A stretch of DNA of 11,650 nucleotides, taken from Candidatus Fermentibacterota bacterium. Lineage in GTDB: Bacteria; JAFGKV01. The DNA is taken from positions 1 to 11,650 of the forward strand of contig JAUXFG010000124.1 of assembly GCA_030620115.1 (NCBI GenBank), in the 5' to 3' direction. Positions within the stretch are counted from its first letter, which is position 1; every line of letters starts with the position of its first letter. The notes below the pieces were generated by a model. It did no database searches and was not told where the DNA came from. It saw nothing but the letters and a program-made list of their open reading frames with translations. This document shows, one piece after another, positions 1-11,650 of this stretch. Made by a program: the position numbers and the translations under genes.

Positions 1-140
1 TCCCCCATTCCCCCATTCCCCCCTTCCCCCATTCCCCCATTCCAGCAATCAAGCAATCCAGCATTTCCAGATTCCTCCTCCACATCCCCCCAGATTACAG
101 ATTCAAGATTGACAGATTTCACATTCCTCCCATCCCCCAC
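1..140. repeat. C-rich intergenic repeat block, copy 1 (cut by window start)
   Basis: There is no credible gene here. Positions 1-45 are an 8-bp tandem repeat (CCCCCATT and variants). Positions 44-68 are a second 8-bp tandem (CCAGCAAT, CAAGCAAT, CCAGCATT). These are followed by pyrimidine-rich filler. Read on the - strand, the order is purine-rich GGAGGAGG, then AAATGCTGG/ATTGCTGG, then GGGGGAATG units. That is the same order as in the spacer at 8940-9083 (also - strand) and, in part, the spacer at 7384-7680 (+ strand). It is therefore a copy of a dispersed composite repeat, truncated by the window edge. Confidence 0.7.
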
Positions 141-2420: not shown

Positions 2421-2769
2421 GCGGGCGGGCCTGTGGCCAATTATGAATTCTCAATTCTGAATTTTGAATTGCGGAGAGAGGAGGAAGCTGATGAGCTGGA
2501 GGAGAGGGAGGATGGGGGGATGGGGGATTGGAAAAAAGATAGCGTTCAGCGTGCAGCGGTCAGACGACGAAGCAGAGATTCTTCGCTCCTTGTGGTCGCT
2601 CAGAATGACAGGGGTTTGAGGCAGAGGGATGTGAAAATGTGTGTCATTCTGAGGAAGCGCAGCGACCGAAGAATCTGGGAGAGGGAACGGGGGATTGAGG
2701 AATTGAATCCGCCGGCCGGCGGAAACATCCAACATCCAACATCCACGCGGGAGTTCGCAACGGCGAGCA
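2421..2769. repeat. Repeat-filled intergenic spacer, copy 2
   Basis: I see no gene here. In order the spacer holds: AATTC/GAATT-rich sequence (2443-2472); purine-rich GGAGGAAG blocks; AGCGTTC-like heptamers (2541-2562); a pair of 35-bp inverted arms; GGGGGATTG and GAATTG motifs (about 2690-2707); a perfect 14-bp palindrome CCGCCGGCCGGCGG (2709-2722); and three exact heptamers AACATCC (2724-2744). The same parts recur in the spacers at 7384-7680 and 8742-9150. The open frame across 2433-2807 is only translated repeat. Confidence 0.75.
2576..2676. repeat. Inverted-arm hairpin repeat (35-bp arms)
   Basis: The left arm, 2576-2610, starts AGATTCTTCG and ends TCAGAATGACA. The right arm, 2642-2676, is its imperfect reverse complement (TGTCATTCTGA to CGAAGAATCT). 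The outer 10-11 bp of both arms match perfectly and the middle is diverged. The loop is 31 bp. The same element with the same geometry lies at 7478-7577, and a single arm at 9049-9083. Similar sequences occur widely between genes in environmental bacteria. Its function is unknown; a transcript could fold into a long hairpin. Confidence 0.75.
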
Positions 2770-5921: not shown

Positions 5922-5938
5922 CGATGAGAAGTGTGGAG

Positions 5939-6119
5939 TAGCCCGCATTTCTCATCGGCTTTCGTCGCGAGACGGGAGAAATGGTTGTGGCTGCAAGGCT
6001 TGCGACCGAGGCTCCCGCAGGCGTATCCTCTGCGATACGGTGAGGAAGCCGACGGAGCGTAACGCAGTCCCGCGGCGGACGCGGGATCGTAGCAGGAAGC
6101 TGGTGAGAACTGCGGGCTA
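5939..6119. mobile_element. 181-bp element with 18-bp terminal inverted repeats (MITE-like or structured RNA)
   Basis: The ends are inverted repeats with 16 of 18 bases matching: TAGCCCGCATTTCTCATC (5939-5956) and GGTGAGAACTGCGGGCTA (6102-6119). Inside are strong hairpins: CGTC/GACG closing a GCGA tetraloop (5963-5974), CGTATC/GATACG (6022-6039) and TCCCGCG/CGCGGGA (6068-6086). A second copy starts at 11612. It holds no credible gene. It starts 17 nt after a stop codon and ends 19 nt before the next ATG. Non-autonomous transposable element and transcribed structured RNA are both open. Confidence 0.65.
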
Positions 6120-6138
6120 ACCTACTGCTCTCTTCCCC

Positions 6139-7477: not shown

Positions 7478-7577
7478 AGATTCTTCGCTCCTTGTGGTCG
7501 CTCAGAATGACAGTGGCAGTGTGCAGAATATGTGGCACTACGTGTCATTCTGAGGGAGCAGAGCGATGGAAGAATCT
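7478..7577. repeat. Inverted-arm hairpin repeat (35-bp arms), second copy
   Basis: Arms lie at 7478-7512 (AGATTCTTCG to TCAGAATGACA) and 7543-7577 (TGTCATTCTGA to AGAATCT), with a 30-bp loop. The left arm is identical over its 35 bp to the left arm at 2576-2610. The right arm has diverged more. Confidence 0.75.
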
Positions 7578-7629
7578 GGGAGGAGGGAGGAGGATATGCG
7601 AAATGTTGAAATGGGGGATTGGGGAATTG

Positions 7630-7678
7630 AACATTGAACATCCAACATCCAACATCCAACGTCCAACATCCAACATCG
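7630..7678. repeat. Heptamer tandem array (AACATCC, seven units)
   Basis: There are seven contiguous 7-bp units: AACATTG, three AACATCC, AACGTCC, AACATCC and AACATCG. The same heptamer occurs three times at 2724-2744 and, inverted, three times at 8945-8965. Units are contiguous with no spacers, so this is not a CRISPR array. Confidence 0.85.
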
Positions 7679-7716
7679 AATGAGAGGCGTGGAATGTTCG
7701 GGGGATCATGGATCCA

Positions 7717-8741: not shown

Positions 8742-8857
8742 CGTGTAGGCGTTCATAGGTTTTAGCGTTCAGCGTTCAGCGTTCAGGAAAAAACCTGGTC
8801 CATAGCCGCTGATCCCCCTGAACACTCGCACAACCTGAAGCAAGGTATAGGCGTTAC

Positions 8858-8925: not shown

Positions 8926-9048
8926 TCATCCTCACTTCGGTGTTGGACGTTCGATGTTGAATGTTCGTTCAATCCCCCAATCCGGCATTCCCCCTTTCCA
9001 GCAATCCAGCAATCCAGCATTTCGCATTTCCTCCCTATTCCTCCACCC

Positions 9049-9083
9049 AGATTCTTCGGTCGCTCCGCTTCCTCAGAATGACA
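9049..9083. repeat. Single copy of the 35-bp arm repeat
   Basis: It starts AGATTCTTCG and ends TCAGAATGACA, and is exactly 35 bp like the arms at 2576-2610, 2642-2676, 7478-7512 and 7543-7577. It is closest to the reverse complement of the right arm at 2642-2676. Its partner arm is missing. Confidence 0.7.
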
Positions 9084-9266
9084 CGTGTCGTCACATCCAA
9101 TACGGGCTCAACAGCTCAACAGCTTATCAGCTTCCCTCTTCGATGTTTGATCGCGACGATGGGCAGGGCTACGGCGCCAAGGCGCCTCTATTGCCACGCG
9201 AAGTCGCGGGAATAGCATAGCTTCCCTAATCAAATTGGTTGGTGCGATTCTCACCATAATCGGCTC

Positions 9267-10869: not shown

Positions 10870-11614
10870 ACTGAAGGATCAGATCATTTACGGGCCGGTC
10901 AGATCGCGGCGGCTGGGGAGATCACTGGGCATAAACGTACTCCCGGCGCGAGAAAAGGTCTGTACGTTCGACTGCCTCTACTGCCAGTACGGTTTGGCCG
11001 AGCCGATAGATCTCGAGACAGGTCGACTGAGATTTCCGTCAGTGGACAAAATCATGACCGCCGTGGCGGAGGCCCTTCGGGCACTCTCCCCTCCCCCCGC
11101 CTACCTCACCTTCTCGGGGAATGGTGAGCCAACACTCCACCCGCGCTTCCCTGAATTGGTAGATGGTCTGGCTCATCTCCGGAACCAGTACGTGCCACAT
11201 GCACAGACTGCTGTCTTGTCGAATGCCACCACGGCGCATCTTCCCGAGATACGGGCAGCGCTCTCAAAACTCGACGTCCGGATCATGAAGCTCGATGCAG
11301 GAAGCCAGGAAATGCTGGACCAGTATAACAGACCGAGAACAAGGGAATCCTTCCAGACCATTGTCGCCAGCCTGGCCACGCTCCAAGATGTCACCATTCA
11401 ATCGCTCTTCACAGGAGGCCCACTCGGAAACTTCTCGGAGGAACACGTTGAGGTTTGGATCGAGCAACTCCTTTTGATCAACCCACGACTCGTGCAACTC
11501 TATACCCTGGATCGCACCTCGCCCTCCGCAGACATCACACACCTCTCCCAGGAGAATCTGCTCAACCTTCGCAGAAGACTGTCCAACATGGGCATCAACG
11601 CCGAAGTCTTCTAG
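10859..11614 (+). CDS. Radical SAM protein, COG0731-like
   Basis: This 251-residue radical SAM protein starts with the family signature YGPVRSRRLGRSLGINVLP, followed by the [4Fe-4S] motif CxxxCxxC at C35, C39 and C42 (VCTFDCLYCQYG). SAM-binding core strands follow: LTFSGNGEPTLHP, AVLSNATT, IMKLDAG, and the late motif VQLYTLDRTSPS. It has no C-terminal auxiliary cluster and is short, so it is close to a minimal core. COG0731 includes wyosine-type tRNA enzymes, but many bacterial members like this one have no known reaction. It overlaps the MocR gene by 11 bp, a sign of translational coupling; its own ribosome-binding site is weak (purine-rich AAAGGGG about 12 nt upstream). The last base of its TAG stop is the third base of the second 181-bp element copy. 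Confidence 0.85.
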   Translation: MLLELKDQIIYGPVRSRRLGRSLGINVLPAREKVCTFDCLYCQYGLAEPIDLETGRLRFPSVDKIMTAVAEALRALSPPPAYLTFSGNGEPTLHPRFPELVDGLAHLRNQYVPHAQTAVLSNATTAHLPEIRAALSKLDVRIMKLDAGSQEMLDQYNRPRTRESFQTIVASLATLQDVTIQSLFTGGPLGNFSEEHVEVWIEQLLLINPRLVQLYTLDRTSPSADITHLSQENLLNLRRRLSNMGINAEVF

Positions 11615-11650
11615 CCCGGACTTCTCACCGGCTTTCGTGGCGAGACAGAA
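11612..11650. mobile_element. Second copy of the 181-bp element (left end only, cut by window)
   Basis: From 11612 the sequence matches the left end of the element at 5939: TAGCCCGSAYTTCTCAYCGG, then CTTTCGTSGCGAGAC (S and Y mark the differing bases). About 33 of the 39 visible bases are alike. It begins on the TAG stop codon of the radical SAM gene and has the same orientation relative to the upstream gene as the first copy. Confidence 0.7.

Follow-up and report, generated by a model that had tools for sequence, protein, structure and literature searches.

The hairpin and its surroundings

The window, the whole 11,650-nucleotide stretch of Candidatus Fermentibacterota DNA that was analysed, carries at 5939–6119 a feature that forms one imperfect hairpin from end to end and occupies the gap between two co-directional genes, encoding a YdjM-like membrane protein and an MFS transporter (Table 1). 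The fold of positions 5925–6135 has an energy of −109.7 kcal/mol (z = −6.0; 0 of 200 dinucleotide shuffles were as stable), and the same fold is adopted by a complete sister copy that lacks the small inserted hairpin (z −6.8). The terminal inverted repeats (TIRs) and internal stems described in the first-pass annotation are present where it placed them. The GCGA sequence, which it had read as a tetraloop closed by one of the stems, lies instead in the conserved internal-loop region of the minimum-energy fold. The TIR is of the IS1380-family type (CCCGCAYTTCTCAYC), with insertion at YTAR and a 4-bp target duplication that is degenerate in the window copy (GTAG/CTAA). The partial second copy at 11612, which the contig end truncates, is genuine: none of 200 shuffles produced such a match. 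Its CTAG target (11611–11614) shares bases with the stop codon of the radical SAM gene upstream.

Table 1. Positions of the element, its parts and the neighbouring features in the window.
Position	Strand	Feature	Basis
5921	+	Stop of the YdjM-like membrane protein gene	
5938..5941	+	Left target-site remnant GTAG, YTAR type	Sequence; target preference of 109 copies
5942..6116	+	Element proper, CCCGC...GCGGG, 175 nt; long imperfect hairpin, probable IS1380-type MITE	Fold, copies, target duplication, TIR
5942..5958	+	Left terminal inverted repeat CCCGCATTTCTCATCGG	Compare P. putida IS1380 TIR, CTAG then CCCGCATTTCTCACAG
5961..5971	+	Outer internal-loop motif TTCGTCGCGAG; right-arm partner GCAG(T/C)AG	Recurrence among representatives
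5988..6067	+	Conserved folded core	Cross-lineage alignment with covariation; 42/386 genomes
5994-5999; 6002-6005; 6015-6020	+	Core motifs, 5' part: CAAGGC; GCGA; CCGCAG	
~6020-6041; 6042-6046; 6061-6067	+	Core motifs, 3' part: apex hairpin; GAGGA; AACGCAG	
6068..6086	+	Small hairpin TCCCGCGGCGGACGCGGGA, standing in for part of the right arm in the window copy	
6100..6116	+	Right terminal inverted repeat CTGGTGAGAACTGCGGG	Sequence and copies' ends
6117..6120	+	Right target-site remnant CTAA	Sequence; copies' target preference
6139	+	Start of the MFS transporter gene	
11611..11650	+	Second copy, left part only (contig end); target CTAG then CCCGGACTTCTCACCGGCTTTCGTGGCGAGAC	

A conformational RNA switch had also been proposed, in which ATTTCTC has two alternative partners, GAGAAAT and the right terminal repeat. 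The 7-bp complementarity is indeed found in the window copy. However, the local stem has a probability of ∼7e-12, and including it in the fold costs 17 kcal/mol. All seven ATTTCTC/GAGAAAT pairs are kept in 0 of the 16 other copies, whereas terminal pairing keeps 5–7 of 7 pairs in 16 of 16. Energy and lack of conservation thus refute the switch in silico, and we give it practically no credence.

Several further repeats were noticed. The genome contains 214 instances of a 19-nt hairpin, TCCCGCG-NNNNN-CGCGGGA, against 0 in the reversed control; this hairpin substitutes for different arm segments of the long element (window 6068–6086; L022, L025, L027 and L029) and also adjoins a ATTGCGAGGAG-type repeat at L028. 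Another palindromic repeat is present between genes in several copies (window 2565–2685, 7480–7580 and 9048–9085) with the units GATTCTTCGCTCC..CTCAGAATGACA / TGTCATTCTGAG..CGAAGAATC. Runs of short tandem-like units (CCCCCATT, CCAACATCCAACATC and TTCAGCGTTCAGCG) lie in intergenic gaps at window 1–60, 2700–2760, 7615–7680, 8760–8790 and 8985–9060.

Dispersed copies and their target-site duplications

Sixteen copies were used to build a covariance model (A1, R1), which matched at least 141 dispersed copies in the host genome (E ≤ 0.01), a floor since 150 candidates were scored and the E-values are rough; a plain DNA search of the same genome (4.1 Mb, 296 contigs) found about 40. The copies are 175–279 nt long, carry no transposase gene and contain only short, spurious open reading frames; at ∼180 nt each they make up at least 0.6% of the genome. 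The element was absent from the plasmids searched, and the core pattern had no match in the viral contigs searched.

Target-site duplications, which the first-pass annotation had named as something to look for, were found at the ends, of 4 bp (statistically) in the host genome and of 5 bp in Omnitrophota. In the host genome, 109 distinct full copies with flanks were analysed. A CCC start is present in 95 and a GGG end in 106, and the 4-mers flanking the two ends mostly fit YTAR (CTAG, TTAG, TTAA or CTAA). The left and right 4-mers agree at 0.663, against 0.592 ± 0.016 in shuffled pairs, and are perfect pairs in 22 of the 109 copies (9.2 expected; maximum of 21 in 500 shuffles); flank lengths other than 4 give no comparable signal. 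Because YTAR 4-mers are duplicated outside the ends, the palindrome TAGCCC...GGGCTA represents target plus TIR. Nested copies differ from uninterrupted ones by exactly four extra bases besides the element, and the 4-mers around the nested insertion have diverged (TTAG/CTCG versus CGAG). Elements nested in another element, at one same site, were observed at L011, L012, L013, L014, L029 and L128; the same composite stands at several loci and so seems to have multiplied as a whole.

Relatives in Omnitrophota are 178-nt near-identical copies with clean 5-bp duplications (TTAAA four times, TTTAA twice, and TTCAA, ATTAT and ATAAT). One Omnitrophota genome, G060, also contains five 58–64-bp derivatives that share one deletion between AAATCC repeats (L178, L180, L182, L263 and L264), at least two of which have perfect 5-bp target duplications (TTTAA, TTAAA). 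Because 58-bp derivatives with internal deletions recur in one genome, the core may be dispensable for movement. A search for an autonomous copy in Omnitrophota G060 and G061 returned deletion derivatives only.

Matching ends on IS1380-family elements

The TIR starting with CC and the 4–5 bp duplication raised the suspicion of the IS1380 family, and PF13701 was searched in element-bearing genomes. An IS1380 transposase (NF033539, 404 bits) was found in an Acidobacteria MAG (G070) that carries element L069. This IS is bounded by CTAG followed by CCCGGATATCTCATCG and, at the right end (reverse complement), by CTAG followed by TCCGCATTTCTCAACGGGGTG, with a CTAG/CTAG duplication; its right end is matched by that of L069 across the TIR and past it. 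The IS1380 element on the P. putida plasmid pKF715A has perfect TIRs of CTAG followed by CCCGCATTTCTCACAG (16/16). In G296, an IS1380 gene is followed by TTAG and CCCGCATTTCTCACCACGC, and the genome's own element begins with CTAG and CCCGCATTTCTCACCAGGC. IS1380 elements in P. putida, the Acidobacteria MAG and G296 therefore all bear CCCGCATTTCTCAC-type TIRs. The end match is weaker in G372, where the end beside a transposase fragment (CCCGAATATCTCATGA) resembles the local element (CCCGGATATCTCATCA). The TIRs of two IS1380 elements in G218, CCCGGATTTCGCA, are similar to the Omnitrophota ends CCCGGATTTTGCA. The IS1380 transposase of G078 was discarded, no matching TIR being found there. A YTAR mobiliser of the IS5/IS701 type, considered on account of the target sequence, was discarded as well: in a PF01609 search the only locus with matching TIRs was the IS1380 element.

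The TIRs matched at IS1380 transposases, together with the target duplications, point to a MITE that is mobilised in trans, presumably by an IS1380-family transposase. Copy number, IS1380-type TIRs, target duplications and compensatory changes (see below) all bear out the earlier proposal of a non-autonomous mobile element with strong internal structure.

A folded core shared by unrelated hairpins

The distal 90 nt of the hairpin are common to hairpins with unrelated arms and, in some cases, unrelated ends. An exact apex scan of GTDB genomes with the pattern CAGGCGTAYCC N0-10 GRTACGNCGAGG returned 42 stretches from about eight named phyla, with conservation of the apex in this set given by construction of the pattern. 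They come from Omnitrophota, Nitrospira and other Nitrospirae, Deltaproteobacteria, Desulfuromonadales, Syntrophobacterales, Myxococcales, Acidobacteria, Eisenbacteria, Brocadiia and Sporomusaceae; many of the genomes are metagenome bins, for which single assignments may err, and the breadth does not depend on one bin. About one chance match is expected by rough estimate, and L083 and L089 resemble chance. Nearly all the other matches form the tip of a ∼40–84-pair hairpin with unrelated arms, and the loop motifs CAAGGC and AACGNAG, which are outside the scan pattern, still recur.

The stems covary in a 17-sequence cross-lineage alignment (0.503 versus 0.180 ± 0.020 when shuffled and ≤0.15 when slid). 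A model built from this alignment (R2) matched 42 of 386 diverse genomes at E ≤ 0.001, or 40 of 326 genera, and 53 matches from this search (48 distinct), once aligned, gave a covariation of 0.545 versus 0.182 ± 0.011 when shuffled; these scores ignore phylogeny, and many copies are related. Across the cross-lineage alignments the core loop bases are fixed while the stems covary. Many core hairpins have IS1380-type ends (including L304, L306, L320, L326 and L352), and others such as L058, L335 and L342 are without them. The outer motif TTCGTCGCGAG is present in 10 of 43 representatives (background 0.1%) and its right partner in 19 of 43 (background 1.5%); some of the hairpins share the outer loop pair TTCGTNRCGAG/GCAGTAGA. 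Some genomes contain inverted pairs of cores at short spacing (L313, L317, L321 and L325), which recalls the REPIN arrangement.

Rfam gave no relevant match above the gathering threshold for the window and 17 other element-bearing loci. A Twister ribozyme was rejected: Twister-P5 scored 15.4 bits against a threshold of 37.6, the match is missing from the Omnitrophota copy tested, and the matched bases vary in the cross-lineage alignment. No published description of the core was found in the literature searched, an absence that is weak evidence. The recurrence of the core points to an undescribed mobile structured element. We tentatively propose, giving the idea nearly even chances, that the 90-nt core represents a structured nucleic acid of an undescribed class, present in about one-ninth of the sampled genomes, which would travel between phyla on several kinds of short transposon and be kept because the folded single strand acts for the element or the host.

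Signs of selection on a folded single strand

In an alignment of 92 copies from the host genome, double changes were found in 36 of 59 pairs and compensatory cells numbered 335 against 119.9 ± 8.3 in shuffled data, the alignment having been fitted to the model; covariation was 0.259 versus 0.165. Neither outcome that the first-pass annotation had named as refuting, a lack of further copies or differences that break the stems uncompensated, was observed. At pairs that are usually Watson–Crick, G-U cells exceed A-C cells by 340:154. Of the two strands, the plus strand gives the more stable fold in 108 of 109 copies (mean difference 14 kcal/mol), an asymmetry that is partly due to the conserved G-A loops; the same holds for 45 of 50 copies from other lineages, for which the plus strand had served to set the boundaries. 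The asymmetry is the same with DNA energy parameters (107 of 109), so this measure does not separate RNA from single-stranded DNA (ssDNA). Flanking genes are oriented ++ in 28 cases and −− in 14 (P = 0.04, heuristic ORF calls), a weak hint of transcription.

Judged by the fixed loops, covarying stems and strand asymmetry, selection seems to act on a folded single strand, either RNA or ssDNA. The combination of covarying stems and conserved unpaired bases is one expected of a structured RNA. The other option of the first-pass annotation, a domesticated structured RNA between genes, is not supported as worded, for the copies are dispersed and their target duplications are kept; selection for a single-strand fold is nonetheless strongly indicated.

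Preferred explanation and alternatives

The element is probably a non-autonomous DNA transposon (MITE) with IS1380-family ends and a conserved structured module inside. The sequences support its spread as DNA via its CCCG TIRs, inserting at YTAR with a 4-bp duplication, and the folding of the whole element as one hairpin with stems preserved by compensatory change. Its mobility would be provided in trans by an IS1380-family transposase. The core would be selected as a folded single strand, most probably RNA made on read-through with the neighbours, and could then form a protein-binding or mRNA-stability structure. Our best guess is that MITEs carry the core as a structured RNA module borne on transcripts, with a putative function. 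Against this explanation, no IS1380 transposase above the cut-off was found in the host genome assembly, a 296-contig MAG, in contrast to G070 and G296; the active source may have been lost from the draft. Homogenisation of the arms by template switching can also mimic compensatory change.

In one alternative, the element is an ordinary MITE with a functionless interior, its conservation due to recent ancestry and its complementarity to template switching between the palindrome arms. Palindrome correction is a known process and the host-genome copies are closely related. However, fixed mismatched loop bases persist while the arms are swapped across many families, and neither the excess of G-U over A-C nor the plus-strand stability bias is expected under double-strand correction; we regard this account as improbable. 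It is somewhat unlikely that the selected fold is ssDNA on the lagging strand or at DNA uptake, with a structure-specific recombinase or nuclease reading the loops and the core serving as mobility machinery. Such a role would suit the cross-phylum spread, the presence of the core on hairpins with different ends and the strand asymmetry obtained with DNA parameters. But the 4–5 bp target duplications and IS1380 TIRs indicate a DDE-type double-strand mechanism, and core-less 58-bp derivatives with target duplications exist. Moreover, 7 of 22 element-bearing genomes lack HUH (Y1) transposases, and the four Y1 genes of the host are not flanked by the element.

Integron attC sites have the ends RYYYAAC...GTTRRRY and were rejected, the ends here being CCCG TIRs with a target duplication. 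A REP/REPIN-type element moved by a RAYT (Y1) transposase might be considered since the genome has four Y1_Tnp genes and REPs are palindromic and intergenic. REPs are defined as hairpins of 20–40 bp with a terminal GTAG or CGTC tag, whereas the present element is far longer, lacks such terminal tags (PMC3733652), has target duplications and DDE-type TIRs, and gave no convincing match around the four Y1 genes. A RAYT/REP origin, rejected on the unflanked Y1 genes and the differing size, ends and insertion signature, is very improbable.

Comparison with known systems

The interiors of MITEs are usually regarded as filler between transposase-binding ends. Here the conserved part is the interior, with the same loops and covarying stems set in unrelated arms in dozens of lineages. 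This suggests that transposons carry a selectable passenger across bacterial phyla, in the form of a structured module of RNA or ssDNA. Given its genome share and intergenic position, the element may broadly affect transcript stability or processing. The core is missing from the RNA family library searched and would therefore be overlooked by annotation pipelines.

With IS1380-family IS (IS1380A and the P. putida pKF715A element) the present element shares the CCCGCATTTCTCAC TIR, CTAG/YTAR insertion and 4-bp duplication; it differs in having no transposase gene, a length of 175–180 bp and a hairpin over its whole length, and its conserved core was unseen in the IS1380-family IS examined. PiggyBac transposons, to which IS1380 is taken as an outgroup (PMC10813416), likewise have CCC ends and a TTAA-like 4-bp duplication, but are eukaryotic, autonomous and without such a core. 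REP/BIME/REPIN sequences with RAYT are also dispersed palindromic extragenic repeats, and differ in size, tags, insertion signature and transposase. In form the element also resembles the bacterial MITEs that fold as RNA hairpins, namely ERIC/RU, RUP, NEMIS/Correia and Nezha (PMC3733652, PMC2229807), which are similarly short, non-coding, intergenic, palindromic and present in many copies, with a strong RNA fold and likely read-through with neighbours. Those elements have been described within limited groups, whereas the core reported here, with its fixed loops and covarying stems, spans about eight phyla on different arms and ends.
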